From an uncultured Clostridia bacterium (lineage in GTDB: Bacteria; Bacillota; Clostridia; Christensenellales; UBA1242), in the NCBI GenBank assembly GCA_944384405.1, contig CALWTH010000011.1, forward strand, positions 1 to 64,000: 64,000 bases of DNA, read 5' to 3'. Made by a program: the position numbers and the translations under genes. Under the pieces are notes generated by a model, which was given only the letters and a program-made list of their open reading frames with translations, was not told where the DNA came from and did not search any database. Shown piece by piece: positions 41,909-63,261 of the stretch (position 1 is its first letter; each line of letters begins with the position of its first letter).

Positions 41909-44900
41909 CGCTTTTTATTGCGTTTTTTCAAAATTAAAATAAATATTATTATAATTACAATTAAAATAAATATTGCACCAAAAACAACTGCATAAAATAT
42001 TATTTGATTTTGTGGCCGAGACTCATTTTCATCAACAATAGCAGTAATTTCTGTATAGTATTTATCAAAAACAATAGTTTCATTTGGTTCGTATGTATCT
42101 CCGGCATAATACCAGCCCAGTATTTTATTTTTATTTGCGTCTAACAAGTTAAGCGATATTTTGTCACCATCTGAATAAGAGTCTTTTGATGTAAATATTT
42201 CACCATTTATATTTATTTTTAAATTAAACAAAAGTTGATATAGCACTGCAACAATATTCGTATTTTGAGTTATTGTTATTGTATCGCCAGGGTTATATGT
42301 CGCGTTGGCATATTGCCATGAAACAAACTCATATTTATTTGAAACATTGGCAGTAGGTAATGTATATGTGTCACCATAACTAAACTGCTGGTCAATCATT
42401 GTTGTTTGGTCGGCAATCGTGATTCCGATTTGATAAGTTGCTTTTTTTAGTTTTATTTCTTTTTGATTTTCAGAGAGATATAAATCATATTTAGAAGACA
42501 TTTTTGGCGAAATTTTTATGTGATTTTTAAAATCTTCTGACATAACTATGTTGTTAGTTATAATAGTTTTATCAAATCCTTTGTCTGTATATATTGTCGC
42601 ATTTATGTTGGTCAAATTGCCATTTAATTTCAATGTATTTGAACCATTTATATACATTTCACCTTCAATTTTGTTGTCTGCAACATTTAAAATTATTGTG
42701 CCGTTATTTAGATAAAGTACATCGCCTTTATTTGATTTGTTTGAGTATATGTCTGAGCTATTTAGTGTTATTGTGCTGTACTGATTTGTATAAACAGTTG
42801 CACCTTCAACTGATGCTGAATTTTTGGTTAGGGTACAATTTGTAAAAGTTGTCTTTGAAGAACTTTGACCATAGACAACTCCGCCATATTTGGCACTATT
42901 TGATGTGAAATTGCAATTTTCAAATTGCACTGTGCCATATGCAAAACATACGCCACCAAAACCACTTGCACTATTTTGAGAAAATTCACAGTTTGTGAAC
43001 GAGCAAGAGTTTGAGTTGTTGATAAACGCTCCGGCACTTGATGCCTTGTTTGAAATAAAAAGTGAATTTGTAACAATTGTTTTGCACTTTAATTCAAGTG
43101 CTCCGCCGTTGCCACTTACTGAGTTATTTTCAAAAGTGCACGAGTTTATCACAAGCGAAGCAGTTGTCGATGTGGTTATTGCACCACCATTGTCATTTGC
43201 TTTGTTGTTCAAAAACTCTGTATTTTCAAATGTTGCTGTTCCACTTGCAACGTATATCACGCCGCCAGCAGAAGTGTTTGAATTGAAGTTTTGAAAAATC
43301 ACATTTTTTGTCGTCAAGTTGCCGTTTGAAACAATGGCTCTTTCGCCAAGACTTGCATAATTGCCTTCAAAAACAATTTTATTTGTGCTATTTCCTTCAA
43401 CGTCGAAATTCACTGCCGAATTTACTGTAAAGATGTTTGAAGAAGTTGTTTTGTAGAAAGTTATATCTTTTGTAACACTTGAATCTATTTTTATGGTAAC
43501 ATTTTTGTCTATGATGATATTATTTTCTTTAATATCTTTTAATAGATATATTGTGTCACCAGCACTTGCATTTTTTATTGCGTCTTTAAGCCTTGTGAAA
43601 TATGTATCTTCAATTCGGCAAACTGTACTTTCTGTGTTGGCGAATGTATCGCTGTATGCGGTGCAATTTAGTCTTCTGTCAAACGCTCTAATTTTGTAAT
43701 TTGGTGTGTAGCCGTCTTGGTATGTTTTTGTGTCTGTGTAATAGTTTGAATTTGTGAAGGCGATTACTTTGTATCCGTCTGTGTCGTTTCCTTCAAGTAT
43801 TTCATAGCCAAGGTGTCCGATTTTGTCTTTTTGGTAAGGCATGAGTATGCTATAACCGTTACTTGTTTTTTCAACAGAAATTATATTTATTTTCATTGAA
43901 TCGTCATATATGGAAAGTTTGTCACCATGTTCAAGTAGGTAAGTGTATGTCATGTTGTCTATATACCACAACTTTAATTGATTGTTAACTATTGTACCTT
44001 CGTCATGTAGTTTTTGCATTGCAGATTTAAAAGCATCACTTGCAGAATTTTCAACAAACATCGTTCCGCCAAGTGCATATCCATATCTTTCAAAGTAGTA
44101 CGATAAGTCAATACCTGTAACAATACTGCTAAAATAAACTTGCTTTTCAACTTTGTTCATCCCACTAGCCGTTGCGGTGCGATACATATTTTCAAGTTTG
44201 CCCCAATATCCAGGAAAAACACTTTCAATGTTCCACCATATTGCTGCATTACCTTGATTTTTTTGCCAAACATCTGCTGGATTGACATCGTCTGGTGCCA
44301 TGAGGTTAGTGATAGTTGAATGATTTTCTCTTGAACCTGTTTTTTCGTTTGCTGACTTGTTGAAGTTAGATACCATGTTGTTTGTTGTTTCTGACACAAC
44401 GCGTTCGCCAATGTCCATCATGTGCCCAATTTCGTGTGTCATTCCCCAGCCAAAGTTCTCGCCAGCCAGTGCAGTGTCTTGCCAGTTATTTGTCTGAATA
44501 CCAATGTGCTCTGTGTATGCGTATGCGGCAGCATATGGTTGCATTATTCTCACATTAACATTAAGATACTCTGCTCTTTCATCATAACTTGATGAATTTT
44601 TGTCAAAATTTACGCCTTCAAAAATGTACAAACTTTTAAGATATGTATCCCAATTTTCGCAAACTTTAGCCACGCTGTAACTTTGAGTTATGTAGTAATC
44701 ATACGCCCTTGATGCTTGAACGGTGAGAATTACTTTGTTTGAAACTATCTCTGTTAAATTCAAATAATTTTCTGGTTGTGCGTTTAAAAGTTCAACATAA
44801 TCTCTTAAATTTTTCTCATATCTTATCTCATCTTGTCCCATGTAATACACAGGGAAAACCGTACCACCTTCAATATAAATTTTCACATCTTCACTTTGCT

Positions 44901-48524: not shown

Positions 48525-51500
48525 ATGCTATTTTATTGCAGTGGGAAAAAGGTTGAAGTAGACGAAAACACGAAGTTTAGCAATTATTTGTTTAAACGTA
48601 TTTATGAAGCCTTGCTCTATAATAAAGAAATGGTACCTGGCAAAAATGGTATTCCTAAATCCATACAATTTAGTGTTAATGACATAATATATTTTTCTTA
48701 TTTTGAAACTGGCAGTAATCCAAATGCTCCAGTGCCTTTTGAAATAATAGATGAACAAGATTTAAATTTTGATGAAGTTTATGCAAATACTATTTTTATA
48801 CGTTTTAACGATGAAAATTTTAAAAATAAGTATATTTCTTGCAAGTTAAGTAAAAGATGTTGCGAAAGTGACAGATATTTAAAAGGCTATGATGATATAA
48901 CTTCAATGAAGAACAACAAAGATGATTTTTGTGTACTATACGCTGATTTTAGCAGTCAATCAAATATTGATAAACTTGAAAAATACCATGATTATTTTAA
49001 TATGCTCTTAATTAAACTTGAAAGCAAAGAGGAAACTCGCTTTGAAATAAATCTTGATTTGATGAAAGAAAATTATTCTTCATTTAATGATACCGCCGTA
49101 GATGATAAATCGTTACTTCTCCCTGTATATGGTAAATTCTCATATATAAAAGAAGTAGTTTTAAAATACACAATCAAGGGCGAAAACAAAGAATTACATA
49201 TTAATCTTCAAAATTGTTATGTTAAAAATGAAAACAGTTTATATAGAAAAAAATTAATTGATTTGCACATCAATTTAGATGAAAAAACCACAATTTATGA
49301 ACTTTGCGATTTGGAGGAACAAGATAGAAATGAAATTGAATGGGTGATAAAAAATGACAAAACTGAAAAATTGTATATTACTGAAGATTTAAAAGGTGAA
49401 ATAACAAGATTAAAACGTATTTTGCGTGCTTTATCAAGAATAAGTTCCGAAAATGTAGAAAACTTAAATTTAGTGGAAACTATATGTAATAATTCTATAG
49501 ATGAATTTAAATATAAATTTAATGTAAATGACACTAGTCTTGATGAGATTACTAATAAATATCCTCGTTTTAAACAAAACAAAGAGCAGGCCATTGCCAT
49601 GAAGAAAGTGCTTGACATGGATATCAATAATGTTGATGTTATGCTAATCCAAGGCCCACCGGATACGGGAAAAACGGAGCTTATCATAGCATTAATAAAA
49701 GAACTTTTTCATAGAGGCAAAAATATTTTAGTTTCTTCAAATGTTCATGTCGCATGCGACAATATTATTGAAAGAATAAAAGATGACAAAGAAATTATTG
49801 TTAAAAGATATAAAAATCTTAATCAAACATCTAGTTATAAAATTGAAAAATTAATAAATCAGCAAAACTATGTCAAATCACAAGTTTATAATAAATATAA
49901 GATAAACGACAATCCTATTTTGAATTTTGATGAGTTAAAAAGCTTACAACTAAAAAAAGCCAATCAATTAAAAGAGATAAACGAACATTATGACGAACTA
50001 AAAACCAAACAATATGATTTTTTTTGTAAAATCCAACAATTAAAAGATTTAGAAACAAACATTATACAAAATAAAGAAAAAATTGAAACTAAGCAAGAAG
50101 AGATTAGAGTATTAGAAGATGAAATAAAAGTATTAAACAAAAATTTATCTGACCTAAATGATGAACTTTCTGGAACCTTGGCAGAATTTAACCAAAAGAC
50201 ACAAGAGTATGACAATTTAGTAAAAAATATAGACAAATTTAAAGCCAAAACAAATAAAGTAGATTTGAAAATTTCTCAATTAAATGATGAGATAACAACA
50301 CTACAAAACAACATTGATTTCAATAAAGATAATATAAAATATATTGAAGAAAATTGTTTAAAAATAGAAAAAGAGATAGAAGAACTCTATTCTATCAACA
50401 TTGAAAATTTAAGAAATGAAATACAAGACAAATTTTATCATTGTATTTGCATCGAAAACGCTAACAATTATTTTGAAAAAGCCATAAAAAAAATCAATGA
50501 CTTCATTTCGCTTGTGGCTATATTAAACAATCAAAATTTATCTCTTATGGCAATAACCAAAAAGTTACTTTCAAATAACTTTAAAGATTGCAGTTTTATA
50601 AGTGAAATTTTGGAAGATTTAGAAATTTTGAATAAATACTATTCATACGACGCAACTTCAAAAATACTTTCAGTTTTCAAAATAAAGTCTAAAGTAAATA
50701 ATGTTTCATATTGGGATTATTTAAAGGCAAAAGAAAAAGTTTTGAATTTTATTTATAATATTTTAAGCACAAAAAAAGAAATTCTTAACACAATTATAGA
50801 TAACAATATAAACAAAGGGGAAATACTAAAAAGAATAAACAGAAGAAAAGGCAGCATACAAAAACAAACTATCCAAAAAGAAAACTTAGAGCAAAAAATT
50901 TTAACTACAAATAATTCTATTTTGCAAAATGAGAAAAATTTAGAAAATCAAGTTGCAATTAGGGAAAATTTGCAGCACAACATCATGATGATGGAACCTA
51001 ATGTCGCGATGTTAAAATATGACATTGATGAATTAGTTGATGATGAAAAGTCCCTACAAGAAGATATATTACAACAAAAAAAGAAATTACAAGAGAAAAA
51101 TGAACTTTTAAAAAATTATTATGAAAGTTTAAAGAAATTGGAAGACGAATTATCTAACTTAACTATAAATGAAAAAACTTTTAACCAATCTATTGACTTG
51201 TTGTCTAATAATGAAGAATTTTTAACATTTAAACAAAGCCTTGATGCCTGTGAAAAACTTCAAAATGACTTAAGTACAGAAATAAATCAATTAAATAACA
51301 AAATACAATTTTTAAATAAATGTCAAATGTCATTAACAAGTGTAAAAGATAATAGTATATTATTTGATTACATTAAAGAATTGCGAGATATTTCAAATTG
51401 CAAAATTGAAGATTTGAATAAATATTTTGATGGTTGTGGTAACCTTTTTGATGCAGAATTCAATGTCGGAGGAGAGAATAAAGGTTCAATACTGTCTATG

Positions 51501-52511
51501 ACAACCAATCAAGTGGCACAAGTTTATAGAAAGGATATGACTTTTGACTATGCTATTATAGACGAGGCAAGCAAATGCAGTTTGCAAGATTTATTAATAA
51601 GTTTGCCCATTGTTAAAAACATAGTTTTAATTGGCGACTATATGCAACTTGACCCCGTCTACGATAGATACAAAGATTTAGATGATGACACAAAAAAAAT
51701 ATTTGATGATTGTAAACAATTTTGGGAAGAACTGAATAAATCAGCTTTTAGTCTTTTACTTACAAAAGCTATTGAAAACAACTATAAAAACCAATTAACA
51801 TCATTTAATATTTGCAACAATGTTGCCATTATGAAAAGACAATATCGAATGAATAAAGGCATATTTGATTTGATAAGTCCAATATACAAAATTCATAATG
51901 GATTTGAACTTATAGATGAGAAAAATACAAAATCAAATGATGTATTGTGCTTAAACATTTATGGGAAAGAGGAAATTGTTTTTATTGGAGAAAGACCAAC
52001 ATATAGAAATGTTTTTGAAGCCAATTATATTAAAGATACTATTGAGTATATAGCACAAAATTATGATAAACTTGATATCAAAACTATTGGTATAATTACA
52101 GGTTATAATGGACAAGTTCGAGAGCTTAACAAAATACTAAAAAAGCCTACAAAACAAAGCTTGAAAATTGAAATAGGTACTTTTGATAGATTTCAAGGGA
52201 AAGAATTTGATTTGGTGCTTGTAAGTCTGGTTAGAACTGAGAAATTGGGATTTTTAGATGATGTACGCAGAATGAATGTTGCCTTTTCTCGTGCCAAGAA
52301 ACATCTTATTATATTTGGAAACATAAAAGAAATAGTAAAAAACTGCATGGTGAAGAAAACATATCAAACAAATTTAACTCCTATACAAAAAGAGCATAGA
52401 TATGTTAATGATGAGTTACTTCCAAAATTAAGTAGACTTTCTGATTCAAATGACTGTCATTCGGCAAATGAGGCAATACAAAAAATTAAGAAAATGTTGG
52501 AGGGCAAGTAA
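48525..52511 (+). CDS. SF1 helicase with a 500-residue coiled-coil insert
   Basis: A 1328-residue ATPase of the Upf1/Dna2-like SF1 group (AAA_11/AAA_12). Motif I is QGPPDTGKTE near residue 377; Ia is VSSNVHVACDN; II is IDEASK near residue 1013; III is VLIGDYMQLDPV; IV is KRQYRMNKGIFDLI; V is TFDRFQGKEFDLVLVS; VI is RRMNVAFSRAKKHLIIFG. About 500 residues of coiled coil (about 460-985) sit between motifs Ia and II, as in an SMC/Rad50-like arm. The first 300 residues have no recognised domain. It is directly joined to the next gene. GGAGG lies upstream. The pair looks like a defence module, but that is inference. Confidence 0.85.
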   Translation: MLFYCSGKKVEVDENTKFSNYLFKRIYEALLYNKEMVPGKNGIPKSIQFSVNDIIYFSYFETGSNPNAPVPFEIIDEQDLNFDEVYANTIFIRFNDENFKNKYISCKLSKRCCESDRYLKGYDDITSMKNNKDDFCVLYADFSSQSNIDKLEKYHDYFNMLLIKLESKEETRFEINLDLMKENYSSFNDTAVDDKSLLLPVYGKFSYIKEVVLKYTIKGENKELHINLQNCYVKNENSLYRKKLIDLHINLDEKTTIYELCDLEEQDRNEIEWVIKNDKTEKLYITEDLKGEITRLKRILRALSRISSENVENLNLVETICNNSIDEFKYKFNVNDTSLDEITNKYPRFKQNKEQAIAMKKVLDMDINNVDVMLIQGPPDTGKTELIIALIKELFHRGKNILVSSNVHVACDNIIERIKDDKEIIVKRYKNLNQTSSYKIEKLINQQNYVKSQVYNKYKINDNPILNFDELKSLQLKKANQLKEINEHYDELKTKQYDFFCKIQQLKDLETNIIQNKEKIETKQEEIRVLEDEIKVLNKNLSDLNDELSGTLAEFNQKTQEYDNLVKNIDKFKAKTNKVDLKISQLNDEITTLQNNIDFNKDNIKYIEENCLKIEKEIEELYSINIENLRNEIQDKFYHCICIENANNYFEKAIKKINDFISLVAILNNQNLSLMAITKKLLSNNFKDCSFISEILEDLEILNKYYSYDATSKILSVFKIKSKVNNVSYWDYLKAKEKVLNFIYNILSTKKEILNTIIDNNINKGEILKRINRRKGSIQKQTIQKENLEQKILTTNNSILQNEKNLENQVAIRENLQHNIMMMEPNVAMLKYDIDELVDDEKSLQEDILQQKKKLQEKNELLKNYYESLKKLEDELSNLTINEKTFNQSIDLLSNNEEFLTFKQSLDACEKLQNDLSTEINQLNNKIQFLNKCQMSLTSVKDNSILFDYIKELRDISNCKIEDLNKYFDGCGNLFDAEFNVGGENKGSILSMTTNQVAQVYRKDMTFDYAIIDEASKCSLQDLLISLPIVKNIVLIGDYMQLDPVYDRYKDLDDDTKKIFDDCKQFWEELNKSAFSLLLTKAIENNYKNQLTSFNICNNVAIMKRQYRMNKGIFDLISPIYKIHNGFELIDEKNTKSNDVLCLNIYGKEEIVFIGERPTYRNVFEANYIKDTIEYIAQNYDKLDIKTIGIITGYNGQVRELNKILKKPTKQSLKIEIGTFDRFQGKEFDLVLVSLVRTEKLGFLDDVRRMNVAFSRAKKHLIIFGNIKEIVKNCMVKKTYQTNLTPIQKEHRYVNDELLPKLSRLSDSNDCHSANEAIQKIKKMLEGK

Positions 52512-54053
52512 ATGGGGATAGTTAAATATAGTAAAGCGATATCAATTCCGCTTTCTCTTTATTTGCTTAACATAAAAGATGCACCAATTTTAAAGTATGA
52601 AAATTTAAGATTTTATGAGAAATACATAGTACTTGCCTTAAAATATGGAATCCAAGCAAATGATTTAAGTGATTTAAAACAGAAGATGTGTGAAATTTTT
52701 AATATTAAATATTCTTTTGTAGAAGAATTTATAGAGCACTATAACAATATAGGATTTATTAATTATGATAAAGAAAAGTCTTTATTTTCATTAACTGATT
52801 CGTATTTACTTGAATATGACAAGAAAAACAATTCCATAATTCGCTCATGCACAAAAGAAAGTTTGTGTGACTTTATTAATATTGTTTACTTTAAAAAATC
52901 AAATACTTTTCTTTATAATGAGGGTTTTAAAGATTTTATAAAAGACATGAAAAGTTATGAGAAAATTAACGATGAAACGTTTATTCAAATGTGCAAAGCA
53001 AATGAACAATTATTGTTACTGCTCAATGATATATTAAAAAAAGATTCAATACATGCGATTATAAATAATAATCAGTTTGAAAAATCCAACATAGAAGTTT
53101 ATGATGCCGCAATAAAAGTTGATTGTTTATTAAATTATGCATACGATGGGCAATCGTCTAGTTTACAAAACTATATAATACCAAACTCCATACTTAAAGA
53201 AAGTATTAAAGATATTCTTGACGATACCATTGTTTTAAACTATAAAACTGATTTTGAAATTCCAAAATATGTTAAAGAGCATGAGTTGTATTCAGAAATG
53301 AATGAAAGGAATAAACTTATCTCAAAGCATGAAGAAGAAATATTAAAAAATAACGAAGCGATTTTTGCAAAAGAAAATATTTTAAATTCGTTATCTATTA
53401 GGAAAAATCTAAAAAATAAAGAAAAAAAGACAATTAAAAAATTAAACAAAGAGGTTGTAGATTTAAAAGAGAAAATAGCAGAATTACAACGAGAAAACAT
53501 CAATTTGACAAATTCAAAAGAAGAATATAGTTTTTTTGACAATACAACAAAAGAAGTTTATTACAAATATTGTGGTAATATGTATTTTGACTATATGATT
53601 AGACAAATTTGTGTAGTTATTGATAAAACAATTGAAGCACTATCAATTGGTGATAATGAAAATGTAGTTTTGGATTTAGCAAGCATAAGAAGTTGGGTAA
53701 ACAAATTGGCTTATGCGATATACGACTATTATTGCGATGGACTAAAAGCAAAAGATTTATCTATGTATTTCCACGATAAATTTAAGCGAATGGAACTGGA
53801 AAATATTTTGGCTAAGTTTAATATAAAACCTTATGACCTTACCAATATGGAAAAATGTCATAAACTTGTTGATTCTTGCTATCATCAAGGAGAAATAAAC
53901 AATAAAACTAAAATCAACCAAGAAAACATTGCAGATTTTTTAACAATTTCACAACAAGAAAAACGAGATATTTTATTAAGTTATATAAAATTATATAAAG
54001 TAATTGATTTGACGGAAGAACAAAAGAAAGAAGTTTTAAGAAAGATAATATAG
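52512..54053 (+). CDS. coiled-coil partner protein of the SF1 helicase
   Basis: A 513-residue protein that begins at the base after the helicase stop, so the two are translationally coupled. An N-terminal segment (about 28-95: YEKYIVLALKYGIQ...FVEEFIEHYNNIGFINYDKEKSLFSLT) looks like a winged-helix domain. Residues about 255-345 form a coiled coil (KNKEKKTIKKLNKEVVDLKEKIAELQ), and the C-terminal 170 residues are helical. No catalytic motif is seen. It may target or regulate the helicase. Confidence 0.75.
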   Translation: MGIVKYSKAISIPLSLYLLNIKDAPILKYENLRFYEKYIVLALKYGIQANDLSDLKQKMCEIFNIKYSFVEEFIEHYNNIGFINYDKEKSLFSLTDSYLLEYDKKNNSIIRSCTKESLCDFINIVYFKKSNTFLYNEGFKDFIKDMKSYEKINDETFIQMCKANEQLLLLLNDILKKDSIHAIINNNQFEKSNIEVYDAAIKVDCLLNYAYDGQSSSLQNYIIPNSILKESIKDILDDTIVLNYKTDFEIPKYVKEHELYSEMNERNKLISKHEEEILKNNEAIFAKENILNSLSIRKNLKNKEKKTIKKLNKEVVDLKEKIAELQRENINLTNSKEEYSFFDNTTKEVYYKYCGNMYFDYMIRQICVVIDKTIEALSIGDNENVVLDLASIRSWVNKLAYAIYDYYCDGLKAKDLSMYFHDKFKRMELENILAKFNIKPYDLTNMEKCHKLVDSCYHQGEINNKTKINQENIADFLTISQQEKRDILLSYIKLYKVIDLTEEQKKEVLRKII

Positions 54054-54551: not shown

Positions 54552-56141
54552 TTATCGGTTAAGAGAAATTAAATTTTTAGGTATATACATGTATTGTGTT
54601 CTATATAAAACTTGGTTTCTTTTTTTTATGTAATTTGAAATCCGTTTATTGTTATAAAATTTTTTTAACATATTTTGCTTTGTTAATGATACCTTAGTTT
54701 TATACATAACAACCAAATTTGTCGAATTGTCAAGATGTAGTTTTTTGCTAAGAATGGAGTTTCGTGCAAGCTTAAACTCGGCAAGACCAAAACAATCTAT
54801 ATACTTAAAGTGTTTTAGAAAGTGTAGTGTTTTTCTTAGGTCAAAATTTGTTTCTGACGGATAGTTGTACATTAATGTAACGGAAGTGATTATATTATTT
54901 AGATAACAATTTTTTAATATTTTTTTTGCTTGCAAAATATTTATTTGTTTATTCATTTTCTTTAGTAAACTATGGCTTAAGCATTCCAATCCAAAAGAAA
55001 TTTCCTTAATCCCACTATGAGCTAGCTTGGCAACTTTGTTAAAATCTAAAAATTCCTTTTGAAATCTTGTTTCAACAATCCAATTTAGTTTTATATTATT
55101 TTTAATTAAAAAATCAGAAAGTTTTGACAAAACTTCAAACTGTACACATTCATCGATAAAATAAATCCCTTGTATATTTTCGGATTGAACAAGATCTTTG
55201 ATTTTGTTAAAAATAGAGGTTAAGTTTAATAGTCTGTGTTTTTCATAATATATATACCTATTACAAAATTCACATTTAGAATGAAAGCAACCCAAATTTA
55301 AGTAAAATGGAACAATTTTTATGTTTGAAAGATATTTTTCCAAACACAAATCATCAAAACAAGGCGTGTATAAACTTGTATTTATTTCTGGGGTGTTACT
55401 ACGTTTGTAAGTGCTGATTGTATCATTAATTTTAATTAAACAATCAATATAACTTTTTTTAGTAATAACATTGCAAATATTTTCATAATTGCCATGAAAC
55501 ACAATGGCATCAAAGTCTGTTTTTTTTAAAATTTCCATTGCGTTGTCTTTGATTTGTGTTAAGTAATCGCCGCCAACAACAATGTAAGTATGCTTAAAAT
55601 TTTTTTTAATTAAGTTTGCTAATTTAATGGCGAAAGGAATTTGGTAAGCATAACGGATTGATAAATAAAAAGAATCTTTATTTTTGTATGAGTTTAATTG
55701 AGAAAAAAAAATATCATCAAAAAGAGTACAATCATTTAAGGAATAAGAAATCAGCTCGTTGACTGTCCATAGCTGTTTTTGCGGTGTTATATTTCTTGCT
55801 GACCATTCCAAATTATGAATATTTGAAATAAATTTTAAAACATTATAAAAAGAAGTATTTAATTTAAAAATATTATGAGGAATTTTTGTTTTATCTGTCA
55901 GTAATTTTTTTGTATCGTTAATATTTTTTATATCTTCTATTGTATTTATATCACAATCATGTAAATACTTTGAATATTTTTCAGTTAAATATTTTTTATT
56001 TAGGCATTCTTGTAAAAATGAAAGAGTTAAATCATAATGAGTCGAACATATATGAGATTGGTTTAAAATATTCTTTATTATACAATTTTCCAGTTGTGGC
56101 ATATTAAAATTTGAAGCCGGGAGAGAAATTAAATTTATCAT
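54552..56141 (-). CDS. cobalamin-type radical SAM enzyme of the RiPP cluster
   Basis: A 529-residue protein with a B12-binding-like N-terminal half (VVGGDYLTQIKDNAMEIL; DAIVFHGNYENI) and a radical SAM half. The cluster motif is GCFHSKCEFC, with Cys285, Cys290 and Cys293. This CX4CX2C spacing differs from the usual CX3CX2C. 'GIYFIDECVQF' and 'EISFGLECLSHSLLKKMNK' follow as in class B-like enzymes and in RiPP-maturation radical SAM proteins. C-methylation or another radical change of the precursor peptide is likely. No B12-binding DXHXXG motif is obvious, so cobalamin use is uncertain. The start at 56141 has AAAGGA upstream. Second gene of the left arm. Confidence 0.75.
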   Translation of the reverse strand: MINLISLPASNFNMPQLENCIIKNILNQSHICSTHYDLTLSFLQECLNKKYLTEKYSKYLHDCDINTIEDIKNINDTKKLLTDKTKIPHNIFKLNTSFYNVLKFISNIHNLEWSARNITPQKQLWTVNELISYSLNDCTLFDDIFFSQLNSYKNKDSFYLSIRYAYQIPFAIKLANLIKKNFKHTYIVVGGDYLTQIKDNAMEILKKTDFDAIVFHGNYENICNVITKKSYIDCLIKINDTISTYKRSNTPEINTSLYTPCFDDLCLEKYLSNIKIVPFYLNLGCFHSKCEFCNRYIYYEKHRLLNLTSIFNKIKDLVQSENIQGIYFIDECVQFEVLSKLSDFLIKNNIKLNWIVETRFQKEFLDFNKVAKLAHSGIKEISFGLECLSHSLLKKMNKQINILQAKKILKNCYLNNIITSVTLMYNYPSETNFDLRKTLHFLKHFKYIDCFGLAEFKLARNSILSKKLHLDNSTNLVVMYKTKVSLTKQNMLKKFYNNKRISNYIKKRNQVLYRTQYMYIPKNLISLNR

Positions 56142-56151
56142 GAAATATCCT

Positions 56152-57129
56152 TTATTTAATAATACTATTAACAATCGTTTTTGAAAACAACAAATTTTTT
56201 ATCCAAATCTTAATAAAGAATATATTGTTAATGTTATATTTGTTTACGCCAACAAAATTTTTAATTTTAGAATAAGTCTTGTTCATCTTTTCTTCTGTAT
56301 CAAAAATCAGTGTTAAAAAGTTTGCACTTGATTTTATAATTTTAATACCGTCAAAACCATTTAAGTTGTCATAAATATAATCTCTGTTTTCCATAATGTA
56401 CTTTCTTGTAGAATCAAAAGATTTTAATAATTTGGTGTCATTTAATAGTTTGACAATTATAGAAATTGAATGAGTGGAAATGGAATGAGGAGGAATAAGA
56501 GTGTTTCTTAATCCATTTATTCTTAATTTTGTTATCAAATATCCTGCTCTTAAGCCAGAAGCAATGAATTTTTTAGAGAAACTTCTTGCGATCATAATTC
56601 TTTCATTTTTCATACAAAGGTCAAGCAAATGATTCGGGTTGTTTGAGAAATCTACATATGCCTCATCAATAAAAAGATAACCTTTAAAAATAGATAGAAT
56701 TTCATTTATTTGGGCTAAAGAAAAAATTTCGCCATTAAACCATCGTGGGGATGAAATACAAAGCAGTGAATTTTCACTAGAATTTTTTGTTTTTAATTCC
56801 TCTATAAATTCAGCCGTAGAAACAGCATCAATATGTGTTGTCTTTTTATTGTGTATTATACAGGTTCTTTCGTATAAGCCAAATTCGATAGATGGCAAAA
56901 AAATTTCTTCCCATCTACTTAATGGCAAGATTGCCGATATAAGCTGACTAATTCCTGCACTAGCATAAATGTATTCTTTATCTATTTTTAAATCGTTAGA
57001 AATTGCATTTACCAAAGGATCACTTAATGGGGCTTTGGGATCAAAACAGAAATCTCCATCAATATCCCCAAACTTAAATTTTTTAGACCACTTTTTTAAT
57101 TTTTTGTTATATAACCAAACAGATGACAC
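56152..57129 (-). CDS. PLP-dependent aminotransferase-like enzyme (HisC/CobD type)
   Basis: A 325-residue fold-type I PLP enzyme close to histidinol-phosphate aminotransferase and threonine-phosphate decarboxylase. The PLP lysine is in SFSKKFIASGLRAGYL (Lys186), the cofactor Asp is in LFIDEAYVDF, and an early FDPKAPLSDP fits the substrate-binding entry. It starts with GTG at 57129 after GAGGTGAT. It is first in the left arm, just downstream of a consensus promoter, and 10 nt before the radical SAM gene. In a peptide pathway it could transaminate or decarboxylate a residue or a free amino acid phosphate. Its role here is inference. Confidence 0.8.
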   Translation of the reverse strand: MSSVWLYNKKLKKWSKKFKFGDIDGDFCFDPKAPLSDPLVNAISNDLKIDKEYIYASAGISQLISAILPLSRWEEIFLPSIEFGLYERTCIIHNKKTTHIDAVSTAEFIEELKTKNSSENSLLCISSPRWFNGEIFSLAQINEILSIFKGYLFIDEAYVDFSNNPNHLLDLCMKNERIMIARSFSKKFIASGLRAGYLITKLRINGLRNTLIPPHSISTHSISIIVKLLNDTKLLKSFDSTRKYIMENRDYIYDNLNGFDGIKIIKSSANFLTLIFDTEEKMNKTYSKIKNFVGVNKYNINNIFFIKIWIKNLLFSKTIVNSIIK

Positions 57130-57146
57130 ATCATCACCTCATAGAA

Positions 57147-57175
57147 ATTATAAATTAAAAACAATTTCATGTCAA
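57147..57175 (-). promoter_or_regulatory. consensus promoter of the left arm
   Basis: On the minus strand TTGACA (57175-57170) and TATAAT (57152-57147) are 17 bp apart, a perfect sigma-A promoter for the PLP enzyme and radical SAM pair. Confidence 0.85.
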
Positions 57176-57179
57176 ATAC

Positions 57180-57208
57180 TTGACTTGTAAATTCATTGTT
57201 TATAAAAT
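57180..57208 (+). promoter_or_regulatory. promoter of the right arm, back to back with the left promoter
   Basis: TTGACT (57180-57185) and TAAAAT (57203-57208) are 17 bp apart. The ATG at 57216 is 7 bp after the -10 box, so the ycaO mRNA is probably leaderless. The two -35 boxes form the palindrome TGTCAA-ATAC-TTGACT. Confidence 0.75.
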
Positions 57209-57215
57209 ATTAACA

Positions 57216-58814
57216 ATGATTCGATTAGAAAATGAAATTAGGAAAGATGCTCCATTAAGGTCAACGATCAGGCTGATAAAAAGAATTTTAAAAAAAAATA
57301 ATATAAAATTTAAAGAAAAAGGGTTCAAATCCTTAAATGGTTTTTTTTCTGGAAGAATAGCGTTAGATCGCTATACGGGTGCAAACGGCAAGGGGATAAC
57401 CAAAAGTCAGGCAAAAGCATCTGCTTATGGCGAATTGCTTGAAAGGCTACAGACAAATATGCTTTATAAAAAAATAACAGAAAAGAAGACATATATTGTA
57501 AATAGAAAAAATAAATATATTAATATTGCTTTAAAATCTGCATCACAACAATTTAGAGAAGAGTTTTACAAGTTAGACGATACATATTTTTTTGAAGATG
57601 AATTTGTGGATTTAGCAAGTGAACAAGCAGAAAAATTGCCAATAAGTGTTATAAATTATTCATGCCATACTAATGGTCTTGCTGCTGGAAATTCGAAAGA
57701 TGAGGCATGTGTTCAGGCAATTTGTGAGGTGCTTGAACGATATATATACAAAAAAATATTGTCGTGTAATGTTTCTACAAAAATTGTTATGAACTATGAA
57801 AAGAACTTAACTAAAAATAATAAAAAGATCTTGGATAAAATATGTGAAAAAGGATATGATTTTGAAATAAGATATTGTACGGATTTTTGCTATCCAGTGA
57901 TTGCTTTTGTGCTTTATAATAAAGAACATACAAAATATATGTTTACACTTGCCTCAGACATTAATTTTAATATTGCTCTTCAAAGAGCTGTTACTGAAAT
58001 GTTTCAAGGTCGCAATATAAAAAATATCAACAATCAAATGTTAGATAAAAACGAGGATATTGAAGAACTTGCAAACAAATATAAATATGATTATAATTCA
58101 TATAATTGGCTCCTTTGCTTTAATTATAATTGTGGTTTAATTCCCAAAAGTGCATTTAGTTTAGAAAAAGTTTCGTTTGCAGCTTTAAACTTTAATAGTT
58201 GCATTAATTCAAACACAAAGGCATTAGAATGGCTAAAGTCATTAATCAACTCGCACATATATGTGAAAGATTATAATGTATTAGGATTTGATACTGTGCG
58301 CGTTTATATCCCTGGGTTAAGTGAAATTGATTGCTTTGACCAATGTGATTTAATAATTTCTAAAAATCAAGAAAAACTTAAGAATATTTTTTTAGACATT
58401 TTAAACCAATCAGATGAGAATATAAACTTTTTTTTAGATAACATATGGGAATTATGTAAACACATAAAATATCAAAATCTTATTTTACCAAAAAATTTTT
58501 TTAAAGTGGAGGGAACTACAAAATATTTTCAGCTGACCTTTACAAGCCTTGCAATAATTTTGTCTGCTATTGTAAAAAGGAAAAAAGAACTAGCTGATTT
58601 ATTACAATTTCAAATAAACAACTTTCCACTTTCGTTAAAAGCAAGAGAAAATAATTTGTATATTCTAAGCTTGTTACAAGACAGACCTTTAACATTAAAA
58701 AATAAAAATTTAGAAAATTATTATAAAAACTTATTTTTGAATCCCAAAGAATATTTAAAAAGTTTAAAACCGAAAGTAAAGATAGTGGAATCAAAATTGT
58801 TTAATAAAATATAA
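57216..58814 (+). CDS. YcaO-domain protein, E. coli YcaO type
   Basis: A 532-residue YcaO protein. YcaO enzymes activate peptide backbone amides with ATP to make azolines, thioamides or amidines. The ATP/Mg motif NGKGITKSQAKASAYGELLER (written here in part; residues about 56-76) and NGLAAGNSKDEACVQAICEV near residue 155 closely follow the order in E. coli YcaO, as do 'FNIALQRAVTEMFQGR' and 'VRVYIPGLSEID'. The C-terminus has no PXPXP and is helical, also as in E. coli YcaO, which is linked to ribosomal S12 methylthiolation rather than to RiPPs. It has no TfuA or cyclodehydratase partner gene. The in-frame ATG at 57216 is chosen on promoter position and homology. Confidence 0.88.
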   Translation: MIRLENEIRKDAPLRSTIRLIKRILKKNNIKFKEKGFKSLNGFFSGRIALDRYTGANGKGITKSQAKASAYGELLERLQTNMLYKKITEKKTYIVNRKNKYINIALKSASQQFREEFYKLDDTYFFEDEFVDLASEQAEKLPISVINYSCHTNGLAAGNSKDEACVQAICEVLERYIYKKILSCNVSTKIVMNYEKNLTKNNKKILDKICEKGYDFEIRYCTDFCYPVIAFVLYNKEHTKYMFTLASDINFNIALQRAVTEMFQGRNIKNINNQMLDKNEDIEELANKYKYDYNSYNWLLCFNYNCGLIPKSAFSLEKVSFAALNFNSCINSNTKALEWLKSLINSHIYVKDYNVLGFDTVRVYIPGLSEIDCFDQCDLIISKNQEKLKNIFLDILNQSDENINFFLDNIWELCKHIKYQNLILPKNFFKVEGTTKYFQLTFTSLAIILSAIVKRKKELADLLQFQINNFPLSLKARENNLYILSLLQDRPLTLKNKNLENYYKNLFLNPKEYLKSLKPKVKIVESKLFNKI

Positions 58815-58825
58815 AGGAGAAATTT

Positions 58826-58945
58826 ATGGGGAAGGTTGCAAAGAAAAAAAACAAAATTTATATCAAGGAGTTAAAACCAGAGATAACACAATGTAGAATA
58901 ATACAAGTGGAGAAAAAAATAAATGAGAAACAAGCAAAAATATGA
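58826..58945 (+). CDS. 39-residue basic peptide, possible second precursor or partner
   Basis: A small ORF with a strong AAAGGAGA ribosome site, 11 nt after the ycaO stop and overlapping the next gene by 23 nt. It starts MGKVAKKKNKIYIKELKPEI, has a single Cys at residue 23 and a Lys/Glu-rich end (QVEKKINEKQAKI). It is too short for a RiPP recognition domain. It could be a second substrate peptide, a small structural partner or a coupling leader for the radical SAM gene. Confidence 0.55.
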   Translation: MGKVAKKKNKIYIKELKPEITQCRIIQVEKKINEKQAKI

Positions 58946-60155
58946 ACTTGCAGGCTTAAGCCAAAAAATAAGCTTAAATTCTTTCAAAACTCCCTTGTAT
59001 GTATATCTACAAATAAACACCATTTGTAATTTCAATTGCAAATTTTGTTCAAGGGAAAGTATGCCCAACAAATCAATAGATTATTTAGATTTTAAATATA
59101 TTATAGATAGTTTATCCGAGTTCGGCGTTAATGATATTTATATTACAGGAGGAGAGCCTCTTCTTCACCCTCAAATTGATGATATGATTGATTATGCTTT
59201 GACTAAAAAAATGAACATTTCAATTTTGACAAATGGTTTTTACATAGATAGACATGTTGAAATTTTAAAAAAAGTGGCTTGTTTGAGTGTTTCGCTTCAT
59301 GGCGAAAAGGAAACACACAACAAAATTGTGGGATTTAATTGTTATGACAAAATTATAAATAATATAAATTTAATGGTTGGCAAGGTTAATTTAACCATAA
59401 ATTACACCGCATTTAACGAAAATATAGATGAAAAGAATATATTGTCAGTTTATAACTTTTGTGATCATAACAAAATCAAAATGAACGTATCTCGCTACAA
59501 CGATTTAGGGTGTGGAAAAATTAATAAATGCGATTTAGACTTAAATATTTTTATGAAAAATATTTATCATTTGGTTGAAAGAGGATATGATATTGGTGTT
59601 AATAATTGTATTGCTCCGTGTGTTGTTTCTCCGAAATATCTCCATTTAACGCATGGCTGTGGTGCAGGAAGTATATTTTGTGCGATTGATTATGATTTGA
59701 ATGTAAAAATTTGTTCAAGTGCAACTCAAGTGATAAGCAATTTGAAAAAAAATTCATTACAGAAGATTTGGAACAACAAATTATTAAAAACATTTCGGGG
59801 ACTGAAATGGTTGCCGATTTACTGTAAATCATGTATAAATCTAGCGCGATGTAGAGGAGGCTGTAGGATTGAAGTTGGTAATAACCTTCTAGGGCTTAAT
59901 GATAAAAATGTTTACGACTTAAATGAAAACACTTGGAGAAAAATTCGAAACAAAAATTTTGAAGTGTGTATTGGTAAAGCAAGGAAAGAAGCAAATTTCT
60001 TTATTAGTTTATCCACGCCATCAAGACTATTTTCAAAGGAGGTATTAAATGTCTTACAAAAAATACAATCTACCGGAAAAATTTCTGACTTAGAACAATA
60101 TAAAGATCTTATTTTATCTCTCTATAGAGATAAAGTTATAAAGGAGAAACAATGA
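58923..60155 (+). CDS. radical SAM/SPASM peptide-modifying enzyme 1
   Basis: A 410-residue radical SAM enzyme. CNFNCKFC holds the cluster Cys (35, 39, 42), followed by ITGGEPLLHP. The SPASM domain is complete: HGCGAGSIFC near residue 245, CSSATQ after 'DYDLNVKI', and CKSCINLARCRGGC near residue 301 for the auxiliary clusters. Such enzymes make thioether, C-C or C-O crosslinks in RiPPs. The C-terminal 75 residues are a helical extension. It ends with an ATGA overlap with the next gene. Confidence 0.88.
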   Translation: MRNKQKYELAGLSQKISLNSFKTPLYVYLQINTICNFNCKFCSRESMPNKSIDYLDFKYIIDSLSEFGVNDIYITGGEPLLHPQIDDMIDYALTKKMNISILTNGFYIDRHVEILKKVACLSVSLHGEKETHNKIVGFNCYDKIINNINLMVGKVNLTINYTAFNENIDEKNILSVYNFCDHNKIKMNVSRYNDLGCGKINKCDLDLNIFMKNIYHLVERGYDIGVNNCIAPCVVSPKYLHLTHGCGAGSIFCAIDYDLNVKICSSATQVISNLKKNSLQKIWNNKLLKTFRGLKWLPIYCKSCINLARCRGGCRIEVGNNLLGLNDKNVYDLNENTWRKIRNKNFEVCIGKARKEANFFISLSTPSRLFSKEVLNVLQKIQSTGKISDLEQYKDLILSLYRDKVIKEKQ

Positions 60156-61327
60156 TAAATAAGAGATGTTTGGAAAAAGACAAAAACTTAATTATGTGGC
60201 TTAACAAATACTTTGTTGTGAATGATTTTACATTAAAACTAATCGAGTTTTTTGATGAAAAGAAAACAAAAAAAGAAATAAGTTCGCTTTTGAATATTAG
60301 CAGATTTAAAGTTGGAAGATATTATAAAAAAATAGAAAATGAAATAATAAAAAGAGATTTCTATGAAAATAATATTAATTTAAAAACACCAATAAAAGTA
60401 CAATGGAAGGTGACAAAGAAATGTAATTTGAAATGTAAGCATTGTTATTTGGGTGAACTTAATAATTTTGAGCCTTCAAAAGAGTTGGTTGATAAAATAT
60501 TAAGTGAGATTTTAAAATCAAATGTTATGGAGGTGACATTGTCTGGTGGAGAATGCTTGACCTGCCAATACATTGATTATATCGCAAATACACTGCTATC
60601 TCATGACATAAAAATAACGATTTTTACAAATGGTTTATTACTAAATAAGTTTGTAGAAAAAATTGATACAAAATACAAGGATAGGGTTGTCATAAATGTT
60701 AGCGTTGATGGCTTAAAAAACACTCATGAACAAATTCGCGGGAATAATACTTTTGACAAAACTATATCTAATATTGAATTTGCCGCATCAAAAGGTTTTT
60801 CAATAACATCAGCAACAGTGGTTAATAGTATCAATTATGATGATATTATAGACATGATTGTTTTATTAAGGTCAAAAGGGGTTAAACATATTCAGCTGTC
60901 AAATATTATAATTAGGGGTCGAGCTGAAAAAAAATTAGAATTGAGCATTGAAAAACAAATGGCTATGAAACAAAGATTGTTAAATTTATATAAAGAACAC
61001 CCTGAATATGAGCATATTTTCTATTCAGAAGTACCAGATGAAGATGGTAAACGGAAAGTTTTTAAAATTGAAAATGGTAATTCTGAATTTGTTGGTAATG
61101 ACAATTGGAAGTGCACCGCAGGACTGGCAAGGGTAACAATAAATGAAGATGGCCGTGTTTATTGCTGTCCATTCTTAGAAAAAAGCTACTTAGGTGATTT
61201 AAAATGCAACACTTTAGAAGAAATATGGAACAAGAAAGAAAGATATGAATTTTTGGATTTTATAATAAAAAGTAATACTGACAGAGTTTGCGTTGCAATC
61301 AAACAAAATAAAGGAGAGGATAAATGA
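60152..61327 (+). CDS. radical SAM/SPASM enzyme 2 with PqqD-like N-terminus
   Basis: A 391-residue radical SAM enzyme. Residues 1-68 read as a PqqD-like or winged-helix domain (LNKYFVVNDFTLKLIEFFDEKKTKKEISSLL), as found in RiPP recognition elements that bind leader peptides. The radical SAM core has CNLKCKHC (Cys91, 95, 98) and LSGGECL. The SPASM end begins with KCTAGLARVTINEDGRVYCCP but lacks the final CXXCXXXC group, ending RVCVAIKQNK, so it probably holds one auxiliary cluster. ATGA overlap joins it to both neighbours. It is the most likely leader-binding enzyme here. Confidence 0.85.
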   Translation: MINKRCLEKDKNLIMWLNKYFVVNDFTLKLIEFFDEKKTKKEISSLLNISRFKVGRYYKKIENEIIKRDFYENNINLKTPIKVQWKVTKKCNLKCKHCYLGELNNFEPSKELVDKILSEILKSNVMEVTLSGGECLTCQYIDYIANTLLSHDIKITIFTNGLLLNKFVEKIDTKYKDRVVINVSVDGLKNTHEQIRGNNTFDKTISNIEFAASKGFSITSATVVNSINYDDIIDMIVLLRSKGVKHIQLSNIIIRGRAEKKLELSIEKQMAMKQRLLNLYKEHPEYEHIFYSEVPDEDGKRKVFKIENGNSEFVGNDNWKCTAGLARVTINEDGRVYCCPFLEKSYLGDLKCNTLEEIWNKKERYEFLDFIIKSNTDRVCVAIKQNKGEDK

Positions 61328-63042
61328 TATCGGTTGAGAAATTTTATAATAATAAATCAAAAGTTGAAGAGTTTATTTCAAAAAGAGCATTTTGTAGTAG
61401 AATGTTGTTTCAAATGATTATAAATGAAAAATTTGCAGATGAAATAAATAATTACATTGATTTTTTTAATAAAAAAATATTTGATAGTAAAAAAATTGAC
61501 AAAATTCTAAACAAAATTCACGCTAAAACGGTAAAGTATTACGAAAAGGCCTACAATGAAAGCAAGAATAAGGTAAAGAATATTTTAATGTCACTGGCAT
61601 ATTTTTACTTCTTAGAGAGTGTTGATGAGCATAGTTCATTTTCTGTTGGGTTGCAAGAAGAAATTAAGAAAAAATATGGTGAAGATAAATACTTGGATAT
61701 TATTTCAAAAGTTGACAAAATTTACCTATCTAATGATGTTAAAAATATAATTCAACAAAGTAACGAAGATATTGACTTAAATTGTCAATTAATTGCGACA
61801 TATTTGGTATTAAAAAAATTCCAGGATTCTCAGCATGATTTTTTTGAGGGCGAATATGGGAAATTTACCGAAGAAGTACAACGAAGGTACTGTAAAAATT
61901 ATTCTGCAACACCATTTGATATTGATTTTTTAACTTTAAGAAAATTTTTGTTTAAAATTATGCAGAAAAACAAAATTTTATCATTGGATCAAGTAAGTCT
62001 TTTATGTGGACTATATATAAAAAAATATGTTATTAAATTAGTTGGTGGAAAAATGTTTGGGCTAGGTATGCTCAATTTACATGGTATAAAAGTTCCGTTC
62101 ACGGTTTGTATTCCAACAAATACAAATTTAAAAAACGAAGATCTAAGTTTTCTTGAATCAAAATGTACAAAATTTTCAGTCAGGAGTTCTGCTGATATTG
62201 AAGATGGAGAAGAAAATTCTTTTGCAGGAATGTTTGATTCATATTTAGATGTTAAGTTTGAAAATTTACCAAAAGCAATACATGATGTTAAAAATTCTGT
62301 AAACAATTCTCGTTTAAAAGCATATATAAAAAAGACCAAACTTGATAAGCCACATATGGCAGTTGTAATACAAGAGTTTGTTGAGCCTGAATATTCGGGA
62401 GTTTGGATTGGAAATGATAAAGACGATGGAATTTTAGAGTGGGTTAAAGGAAATGGAGAAAAGCTTGTTTCTGGCTCCAGTACTCCTGTTTCCGAAGTGT
62501 GGAACAAAAAACAATGTGAGGGCCCTTCATTAAAATCTGATAATGATGTTGCTATAGGGGAACAACTGATTTGCTTTCAAAATAAATTAAATGTTATCGC
62601 TGATTTTGAATGGATGGTTTTAAATGGAAAGCTTGTTATGTTGCAGTATAGGCCAGTAACAAGAAAAATCAAGATAGAGACTATTAAATCTGAAGAAAAT
62701 AATGATGGAGTTATAAAAGGCACGCCAGCATCTTCTGGAATTGTTGAAGCTAAGTTTTATATTGCGGATGATTATACTGAAAAAATCCAAACAGACAAAA
62801 TTCTTGTTGCATATGCAACCGATCCAAATTGGATTCCACATATTATAAAATCCAAAGGGGTAGTAACTGTAACTGGTGGTTTTTTATGCCACGCAGCAAT
62901 TATTTGTAGAGAACTTGGAATTCCATGCGTTACTGGTATAGGCAATGAAGGATTAAGTGTTTTAAGCAATAATTTGGAAAAAGTATTGACTTTAAATGGG
63001 AATCATGGTAGCATTAGTTTAGGAGGGAGTAGTAGTGATTAA
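61324..63042 (+). CDS. PEP-synthase-type dikinase without PEP-binding domain
   Basis: A 572-residue protein. Residues 1-235 are helical and unrecognised. Residues about 240-470 are the PPDK/PEP-synthase ATP-binding domain: VRSSADIEDGEENSFAGMFD (residues about 286-305), VVIQEFVEPEYSGVW, GNGEKLVSGSSTPVSEVW and MLQYRPVTR. Residues about 475-572 are the swivelling phospho-His domain with GGFLCHAAIICRELGIPCV and catalytic His523. The large PEP/pyruvate barrel is absent, as in rifampicin phosphotransferase, although the domain order differs. It should phosphorylate some acceptor using ATP via phospho-His. An acceptor in the peptide pathway is inference. ATGA overlap upstream; the precursor start lies within its 3' end. 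Confidence 0.82.
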   Translation: MISVEKFYNNKSKVEEFISKRAFCSRMLFQMIINEKFADEINNYIDFFNKKIFDSKKIDKILNKIHAKTVKYYEKAYNESKNKVKNILMSLAYFYFLESVDEHSSFSVGLQEEIKKKYGEDKYLDIISKVDKIYLSNDVKNIIQQSNEDIDLNCQLIATYLVLKKFQDSQHDFFEGEYGKFTEEVQRRYCKNYSATPFDIDFLTLRKFLFKIMQKNKILSLDQVSLLCGLYIKKYVIKLVGGKMFGLGMLNLHGIKVPFTVCIPTNTNLKNEDLSFLESKCTKFSVRSSADIEDGEENSFAGMFDSYLDVKFENLPKAIHDVKNSVNNSRLKAYIKKTKLDKPHMAVVIQEFVEPEYSGVWIGNDKDDGILEWVKGNGEKLVSGSSTPVSEVWNKKQCEGPSLKSDNDVAIGEQLICFQNKLNVIADFEWMVLNGKLVMLQYRPVTRKIKIETIKSEENNDGVIKGTPASSGIVEAKFYIADDYTEKIQTDKILVAYATDPNWIPHIIKSKGVVTVTGGFLCHAAIICRELGIPCVTGIGNEGLSVLSNNLEKVLTLNGNHGSISLGGSSSD

Positions 63043-63157
63043 ATTTATTAAAAAATTATTTTCTAGGAAAAAGGATGTTTTGATTGATATTAATTCAATT
63101 GATAATTCTTTGTCTTTGTCTATGGCTGGACATGGTGATTGCTCTGATCAATGTTAA
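63035..63157 (+). CDS. 40-residue candidate RiPP precursor peptide
   Basis: A short ORF starting with GTG and with an AGGAGGGAG ribosome site 5 nt upstream. It overlaps the dikinase gene by 8 nt. The first 30 residues look like a leader: a basic amphipathic start (MIKFIKKLFSRKKDVLIDIN), then SIDNSLSLS. The end is MAGHGDCSDQC, rich in Gly, Asp and Cys with the two Cys 4 apart and a C-terminal Cys, a typical core for radical SAM or YcaO chemistry. A strong terminator follows. It is too short for automatic ORF calling and would be missed by most pipelines. The role as substrate is inferred from position and composition. Confidence 0.75.
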   Translation: MIKFIKKLFSRKKDVLIDINSIDNSLSLSMAGHGDCSDQC

Positions 63158-63219
63158 TCAAAATTTATATTGTTTTTTATTAAAAACAAAATACAAACAG
63201 TTTAAAAAATATATATAAG

Positions 63220-63261
63220 AAAAACACACTCTCTTAGATTGTTCTAAGAGAGTGTGTTTTT
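63220..63261 (+). terminator. strong terminator of the RiPP operon
   Basis: AACACACTCTCTTAGA pairs with TCTAAGAGAGTGTGTT around a 4-nt loop, with A and T runs: a perfect 16-bp stem or longer. Confidence 0.95.

Follow-up and report, generated by a model that had tools for sequence, protein, structure and literature searches.

What does a bacterium make with a locus in which a YcaO enzyme, three radical S-adenosylmethionine (SAM) enzymes, a pyridoxal phosphate (PLP) enzyme and a dikinase stand together with small peptide genes? The question is raised by an island at 54552-63261 of a 64,000-nucleotide stretch of DNA from an uncultured Clostridia bacterium (contig CALWTH010000011.1, positions 1 to 64,000), referred to here as the window. 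The list of open reading frames (ORFs) and their translations places six enzyme genes in two divergent arms. The left arm, on the minus strand, encodes a cobalamin-dependent-type (B12-type) radical SAM enzyme and a HisC/CobD-type PLP enzyme. The right arm, on the plus strand, encodes in order YcaO, a small ORF (sORF1), two radical SAM enzymes (rSAM1 and rSAM2), the dikinase and a second small ORF (sORF2). An earlier reading of the DNA letters alone (the sequence-only reading) had proposed that the island is one pathway for a RiPP (ribosomally synthesised and post-translationally modified peptide). The Pfam search confirms all six ORFs and their families, which are Radical_SAM, Aminotran_1_2, YcaO, Radical_SAM with SPASM (twice), and PPDK_N with PEP-utilizers. 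The recurrence of the gene set and its peptide in relatives supports the proposal, and the island is probably a RiPP biosynthetic cluster, with its chemistry and product predicted from the enzyme families.

Recurrence of the gene set and its peptides

A YcaO-profile scan of GTDB species contigs gave 244 relatives, and the best 80 of the 244 were kept, corresponding to 79 loci. Related clusters are found at five of these loci. L053, from a Bacilli metagenome-assembled genome (MAG), has all six enzymes and both small genes, with tblastn identities to the window of 39% for YcaO, 42% for the dikinase, 48% for the PLP enzyme, 40% for rSAM2, 30% for rSAM1 and 32% for the B12-type enzyme. L054 (Lachnospiraceae MAG) holds YcaO, rSAM1, rSAM2, the dikinase, sORF1 and sORF2, and L051 and L052 (Clostridia MAGs), whose contigs start shortly before the cluster, hold YcaO, rSAM1, the dikinase and sORF2. 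L056 (Lachnospiraceae MAG) holds YcaO, rSAM1, rSAM2 and both small genes, with no dikinase at the locus. Counting the window, the stable core of YcaO, rSAM1 and the sORF2 peptide is present in six of six clusters and the dikinase in five of six; the full six-enzyme set is present in two (window and L053), the PLP and B12-type genes being optional. The sequence-only reading had named two outcomes that would count against it, namely homologues usually found apart and a small ORF that is not conserved. Neither was found, as L053 has the full set and L051, L052 and L054 share YcaO, rSAM1, dikinase and peptide. The joint occurrence of the six enzymes and the 40-residue ORF, which it proposed to look for in other genomes, is seen in L053; the other four relative clusters hold part of the set. 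Because the genes recur with the peptide in L051-L054, chance co-location of the island genes was rejected.

In a tree of 85 YcaO rows, the YcaOs of the window, L051, L052, L053 and L054 form one group with a support of 98 (Shimodaira-Hasegawa-like approximate likelihood ratio test, SH-aLRT). The L056 YcaO lies just outside this dikinase and peptide group, with L057. The tree neighbours L055, L057 and L104 are without the gene set, and L155, a YcaO locus of the same order, has neither the peptide motif nor the dikinase. No strong dikinase match was found in the other 74 of the 79 YcaO loci; the weak matches of ~50 bits in L064, L069 and L097 were not counted as homologues of the island dikinase. 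Among 309 genomes from the host's family, YcaO is present in the window's own alone, and among the 341 of the class sample it is present in 8, own included, so the island is rare. The class-sample YcaO loci L044-L050 were rejected as relatives, as they show other RiPP-like or lone YcaO contexts. No relative was found among the 104 stretches of an exact-peptide YcaO scan of genome contigs, and the plasmid search gave no dikinase at E 1e-20 and one weak YcaO match at E 1e-15.

A closer copy is found in a genome of the same genus, G114, where the end of rSAM1, rSAM2, the dikinase and sORF2 share a contig of 3984 bases whose edge cuts through rSAM1. The enzymes are 85-93% identical to those of the window at the protein level, with a ratio of non-synonymous to synonymous substitution rates (dN/dS) of 0.08-0.15. 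The G114 assembly has no YcaO and no PLP enzyme of the island kind, which may reflect an assembly gap or a real absence.

The candidate precursor is sORF2, whose GTG start at 63035 is located inside the end of the dikinase gene and is preceded by TAGGAGGG. A peptide gene of 39-42 residues is present in all five relative clusters, and the C-termini are GGNYCQD (L051, L052), GGNYCSDVC (L053, L054), GGNYCSDIC (L056) and GHGDCSDQC (window, G114). The family core can be written as G-G/H-N/G-Y/D-C-S/Q-D, often followed by x-C, and is accompanied by YcaO and rSAM1 in 6/6 clusters. When all six frames were searched with a regular expression (segments of at most 150 residues), the core motif was found in 5 of the 79 YcaO loci and in 0 of the other 74. 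Met1, Gly32, Cys36 and Asp38 (window numbering) are invariant. Between the window and G114, 35 of 40 residues are the same and the core is identical; the 8.0 synonymous and 5.0 non-synonymous differences give a dN/dS of 0.11, like the enzymes. Judged from these alignments, sORF2 is a constrained peptide gene, and the island has the short conserved precursor gene beside modifying enzymes by which a RiPP cluster is recognised. No NCBIfam model matched sORF2, its relatives or the window's sORF1.

The sequence-only reading was right about a small peptide gene at the end of the right arm but missed the second one, sORF1. Homologues of sORF1 abut or overlap rSAM1, directly upstream of it, in L053, L054 and L056, with a common motif T-Q/E-C-R-x-x-Q-V and 44-49% identity. 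A profile built with the window left out recovers sORF1 at E 4.5e-15, rank 1 of 1724 segments. The four clusters in which rSAM2 is present and the upstream DNA can be read all have it, and it was not found in L051 and L052, the two clusters without rSAM2. Both small genes have good ribosome sites and overlap a neighbour, sORF1 with rSAM1 and sORF2 with the dikinase end. Coordinates are collected in Table 1.

Table 1. Genes and putative control sites of the island, in window coordinates.
Feature	Position	Strand	Evidence
Cobalamin-dependent-type radical SAM enzyme (putative)	54552..56141	-	PF04055 E 2e-8; NCBIfam rSAM_ocin_1 E 1e-15, below cutoff
HisC/CobD-type PLP enzyme, 325 aa	56152..57129	-	PF00155 E 4e-26; NCBIfam hisC E 2e-32, below cutoff
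Promoter-like site, left arm, TTGACA-17-TATAAT	57147..57175	-	12/12 consensus match
Promoter-like site, right arm, TTGACT-17-TAAAAT	57180..57208	+	10/12 consensus match
YcaO ATP-dependent amide-backbone enzyme, 532 aa, isoelectric point (pI) 9.2, no PxPxP	57216..58814	+	PF02624 E 2e-36
sORF1, 39 aa, motif TQCRIIQV, putative second precursor or accessory peptide	58826..58945	+	AAAGGAG ribosome site; homologues in relatives
rSAM1, first SPASM radical SAM enzyme	58923..60155	+	PF04055 + PF13186
rSAM2, second SPASM radical SAM enzyme, N-terminal fold in model like a RiPP recognition element (RRE)	60152..61327	+	PF04055 + PF13186; model match SkfB
Dikinase, 572 aa: all-helical N-domain (~1-235), ATP-binding domain, phospho-carrier His domain (His523)	61324..63042	+	PF01326, PF00391; model
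sORF2, 40 aa, candidate precursor peptide, basic N-terminus, C-terminal core GHGDCSDQC	63035..63157	+	GTG start behind TAGGAGGG; core family in relatives
Strong terminator-like hairpin closing right arm	63220..63261		19 bp stem, -28.4 kcal/mol, z -7.8

The enzymes and the named RiPP classes

Alignment to relatives gives ATG 57216 as the most likely YcaO start. The window YcaO retains the residues that are invariant across the aligned YcaOs, which we take to form the ATP site. By profile, its nearest solved relatives are E. coli YcaO (E 4.7e-54) and MJ1094 (2.8e-20), and the matches to azoline enzymes are far weaker (LynD 1.6e-6, TruD ~1e-6). MJ1094 is a methanogen YcaO associated with McrA thioamidation. 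The island YcaO is thus closest in sequence to characterised thioamide-forming enzymes, and the PxPxP C-terminus is absent in 6/6 cluster YcaOs. This PxPxP is linked with azoline formation (PMC12670281). Another study describes thioamidation of ribosomal protein uL16 by E. coli YcaO in an organism without TfuA, and a few YcaOs of that group in RiPP-like contexts (PMC13063428). The E. coli enzyme has an acidic pI of 4.4 and a folded ribosomal protein as its substrate (PMC13063428), unlike the basic island YcaO, whose neighbours are a small peptide gene and genes for radical SAM enzymes. TfuA-YcaO thioamidated RiPPs resemble the island in joining a RiPP with a probable thioamide-forming YcaO. 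However, no TfuA domain was found among the island proteins in the Pfam search, and the partners are radical SAM enzymes and a dikinase, so assignment to the TfuA-YcaO class was rejected. The same search found no E1-like partner or FMN (flavin mononucleotide) dehydrogenase among the island proteins, and for this and the lack of PxPxP in all six clusters, membership of the thiazole/oxazole-modified microcins (TOMMs) or linear azol(in)e peptides was also rejected. A different mix of YcaO and radical SAM enzymes is found at L047 (4103-17848), a YcaO locus with three radical SAM proteins. Its further genes presumably encode two Nif11-like small proteins, an ATP-pyrophosphatase-like protein, a B12-type radical SAM enzyme and a transporter (named by eye).

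The PLP enzyme is 48% identical to the L053 copy and retains Lys186 and Asp155; both proteins have SPRWFxGE at the place of HisC's SPNNPxG. It occurs together with the B12-type enzyme in the window and L053 only, and L052 has a different 510-residue PLP enzyme at the cluster end. A YcaO paired with a PLP aminotransferase acting at the C-terminus is also known from daptides with YcaO, although those systems use an aminotransferase of class III, an oxidative decarboxylation and a YcaO with PxPxP (PMC12670281). The island PLP enzyme belongs to class I/II (PF00155) and its YcaO has no PxPxP, and the daptide class was rejected on the class of the PLP enzyme. The B12-type ORF opens at 56174 and has its likely start at ATG 56141 by alignment to relatives; the protein is 35% identical to the L053 copy in the alignment. 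A C-x4-C-x2-C cluster motif is seen in both copies instead of the usual C-x3-C-x2-C. The sequence-only reading is borne out here in the radical SAM domain (PF04055), but no cobalamin-binding Pfam domain was detected in this protein and the label derives from a below-cutoff NCBIfam similarity.

Both rSAM1 and rSAM2 have the features expected of sactipeptide or ranthipeptide maturases, which are SPASM, CxxxCxxC with auxiliary cluster cysteines, and invariant Cys columns. Their matches to curated NCBIfam maturase models all fall far below cutoff. Homologues of rSAM1 are present in 5/5 relative clusters and in a further locus, L031; rSAM2 is absent from the L051 and L052 genomes (search at E 1e-40). 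The rSAM2 model has a mean predicted local distance difference test (pLDDT) score of 72.5 with some low-confidence stretches, and its N-domain is formed by strands followed by three helices. The best structural match is the RiPP maturase SkfB (386 columns, template modelling (TM) score 0.62), followed by MoaA and SuiB. SkfB and SuiB have N-terminal RREs. The model follows SkfB (6efn) and SuiB (5v1q) along the chain; the identity is only 14-19%, and in the island two SPASM enzymes are joined with a YcaO and a dikinase. L051 (655-1488) and L052 (166-960), the two clusters without rSAM2 and sORF1, have an extra radical SAM protein of ~270 residues, NrdG2/MoaA-like, upstream of rSAM1.

The dikinase model (mean pLDDT 85.8) is helical up to about residue 235 and is followed by the ATP and His domains. 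Among solved structures it comes closest to rifampin phosphotransferase and pyruvate phosphate dikinase (PPDK), at domain level with query-normalised TM scores of 0.24-0.46 over the ten best matches; phosphoenolpyruvate (PEP) synthase is also among its nearest solved relatives. Arg287, Gln350, Glu429, Gln441, Arg443 and His523 are invariant in 5/5 sequences and align with the ATP and His sites of rifampin phosphotransferase; these ATP-site residues and the carrier His are those of a histidine-swivel dikinase. Unlike rifampin phosphotransferase and PEP synthase, which share the ATP-binding and phospho-His domains, the island protein has a helical N-domain and adjoins peptide genes. Pfam found only PPDK_N and PEP-utilizers in its 572 residues, without the PEP-binding C-terminal barrel of PEP synthase and PPDK. 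Neither Pfam nor a PDB sequence search gave a match for the N-domain, which was not fold-searched as a domain alone. To our knowledge, no dikinase is known from peptide maturation.

Island-type dikinase homologues are found in four relative clusters and G114. Of 197 host-family genomes, 7 (the window's own among them) have dikinases of the island kind at E <1e-75, in eight places, one of them stop-broken, and among the 341 class genomes only the window's has it (profile search, E 1e-60). Other settings were also seen. L028 (14379-8537) has a 31-residue basic peptide (MIKIIKK...SCCGQRA), a 78-residue small protein, a radical SAM enzyme, an ABC (ATP-binding cassette) transporter, a weak M16-like protein and an N-domain dikinase, and in L026 a dikinase is followed by a radical SAM fragment. 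The window's own genome has a second candidate peptide locus, L029 (G000:C7, 3008-8799), with a counterpart in L031 (G076:C12, 2337-9240). Both hold a 20-residue peptide ending in ECCVHR[CS], a dikinase of other domain order with an extra domain at the C-terminus, an rSAM1 homologue (truncated in L029, intact in G076), ThiF, SBP_bac_5 and an aminotransferase. A dikinase with peptide and radical SAM genes as its neighbours is thus seen in more than one setting.

The sequence-only reading knew of no named RiPP class with this enzyme set, and the literature search agrees: no paper combining YcaO, radical SAM, dikinase and RiPP was found, with preprints and most subscription papers outside its scope. 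Compared with TOMM, TfuA-YcaO and daptide systems, the island is best read from its sequences as a RiPP pathway that fits none of these classes.

Proposed pathway and competing explanations

In the proposed pathway, sORF2 would be the precursor and its basic N-terminal stretch the leader. The YcaO would phosphorylate a core backbone amide with ATP, most likely for an exchange of O for S (thioamide) and not for azoline closure; the thioamide is preferred because it is the reaction of the nearest characterised relatives. rSAM1 would then make a radical crosslink at the invariant Cys36. The dikinase would pass an ATP phosphate via His523 to the peptide, most plausibly to Asp38 or the C-terminal carboxylate, as a lasting group or as activation for bond formation, and the basic leader is probably bound by its helical N-domain. 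A separable second module would consist of rSAM2 and sORF1, and only in the longest variants (window, L053) may the C-terminus be further modified, by the PLP and B12-type enzymes. Enzymes encoded elsewhere in the genome would remove the leader and export the product. As for leader recognition, a basic N-terminus (4-6 Lys/Arg in 16 residues) is found in 6/6 peptides that accompany the island-type N-domain dikinase, window and G114 included. The corresponding count is 0 in the peptide of L056, where the dikinase is missing, and 7 in the peptide beside the related dikinase of L028. These rows are few and related, and the pattern is a lead for recognition by the N-domain and not a test of it. In its fullest form the proposal is of a new class of RiPP. 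Here the peptide itself would be the substrate of a histidine-swivel dikinase, guided by a helical N-domain that reads the basic leader, while YcaO would form a thioamide and the SPASM enzymes crosslinks on a fixed GGNYC[S/Q]D core, and sORF1 would be a second substrate or peptide partner. We put this form forward tentatively, at somewhat less than an even chance.

Several observations weigh against this proposal. Four of the five relative loci have neither the island-type PLP enzyme nor the B12-type enzyme (the latter sought in the loci only); the PLP enzyme is missing from the whole genomes of these four as well, and the dikinase from the L056 genome. N-domain dikinases also occur without a YcaO or an obvious peptide gene in L024, L025 and L027. 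The window YcaO is without the C-terminal Cys cluster that the other five have and has a long branch in the tree (1.34); it could be drifting. With the window and G114 excluded, the sORF2 profile still ranks the window peptide 1 of 1724 window segments, yet at E 0.14 with the next at 0.43, a weak value that is attributed to drift of the window core. Pfam and profile searches of the rSAM2 N-domain alone returned nothing for an RRE by sequence. Finally, all five relative clusters come from MAGs.

The roles of the two peptides could be reversed. The radical SAM enzymes would then have sORF1 as their real precursor, with the product cut from its middle (TQCRIIQV) as pyrroloquinoline quinone (PQQ) is from PqqA, and sORF2 would be a second substrate in a two-peptide system. 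sORF1 is conserved as much as or more than the enzymes, as its identity and leave-out score indicate, and adjoins rSAM1 wherever it is present, in four clusters that all have rSAM2. However, L051 and L052 retain YcaO, rSAM1, dikinase and sORF2 with no sORF1 found, and sORF2 alone is present in 6/6 clusters, which makes the reversed arrangement rather unlikely. It is similarly unlikely that the dikinase is a bystander or a small-molecule enzyme, for instance one that makes a phosphorylated building block for the CobD/HisC-type enzyme. The gene overlaps sORF2 in the operon, the protein accompanies the basic leader type, and it is present in 4/5 relative clusters, three of whose genomes have no island-type PLP enzyme. 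On the other side, the related dikinases of L024, L025 and L027 stand in other contexts, the closest solved homologues, of rifampin phosphotransferase type, act on small molecules, and HisC/CobD enzymes take phosphorylated amines.

A YcaO that closes azolines at the core Cys in the manner of linear azol(in)e peptides, with a phosphopeptide made by the dikinase as the end product, is improbable. One invariant core residue is indeed Cys, a usual azoline residue, but PxPxP is lacking in all six YcaOs, the island has no E1-like or dehydrogenase partner, and the solved azoline YcaOs are far weaker profile matches. A further alternative concerns the use of the product, which might be a cofactor- or metallophore-like peptide that serves in or near the cell, as PQQ, mycofactocin and methanobactin do, and not an antibiotic. 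The nearly fixed GGNYC[SQ]D core across hosts named Bacilli, Clostridia and Lachnospiraceae would suit such a role, as would an island without exporter or protease domain. Against it stand the patchy distribution (YcaO in 1/309 family genomes), the defence-type neighbours in the window, the ABC transporter beside the L056 cluster and the change of the window core to GHGDCSDQC; we regard this use as possible but doubtful. The reading that we prefer remains a RiPP pathway with sORF2 as the precursor and a probable thioamide-forming YcaO.

Genomic context and significance

The sequence-only reading described tight coupling of the right arm, and ATGA overlaps are indeed found at 60152/60155 (rSAM1/rSAM2) and 61324/61327 (rSAM2/dikinase). 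Its divergent promoters correspond to an outward-facing promoter-like pair that spans 57147-57208, but promoter-like sites in the region are not commoner than in shuffled sequence (70 vs 62, standard deviation 7.2), so the support for the pair comes from its position and quality and not from number. The plus-strand site ends at 57208 and the likely start codon of YcaO follows closely at 57216, so the YcaO mRNA may be nearly leaderless. The terminator is likewise a strong hairpin, although terminator-like sites are not above shuffles in the region (2 vs 2.3). As the same reading stated, no transporter or protease domain is found among the island proteins (Pfam), which leaves export unexplained. 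At L056, genes for an ABC ATPase and two ABC2_membrane_6 permeases immediately precede YcaO; profile searches covered the flanks of L051-L054 only in part, and exporters may lie there.

Likely defence genes flank the island (regions window 48525-54053 and L030 14682-19500). The left flank has an MkoA-type helicase and a 513-residue unknown protein, and the right flank has SoFic, a type II cytosine methyltransferase and a 773-residue unknown protein. Elsewhere, the window encodes a collagen-repeat protein (39239-40372) and a 1390-residue beta-helix protein with an M60-like N-terminal domain (41899-46071).

The island opens the questions of whether a RiPP can be thioamidated by a YcaO without TfuA, how a phospho-His enzyme would act on a peptide, and why two small genes are kept. 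Further clusters can be sought with the markers GGNYC[SQ]D and T[QE]CR[IM][IL]QV. The finding thus defines, from sequence comparison, a cluster type marked by a nearly fixed peptide core and a family of dikinases with a helical N-domain.

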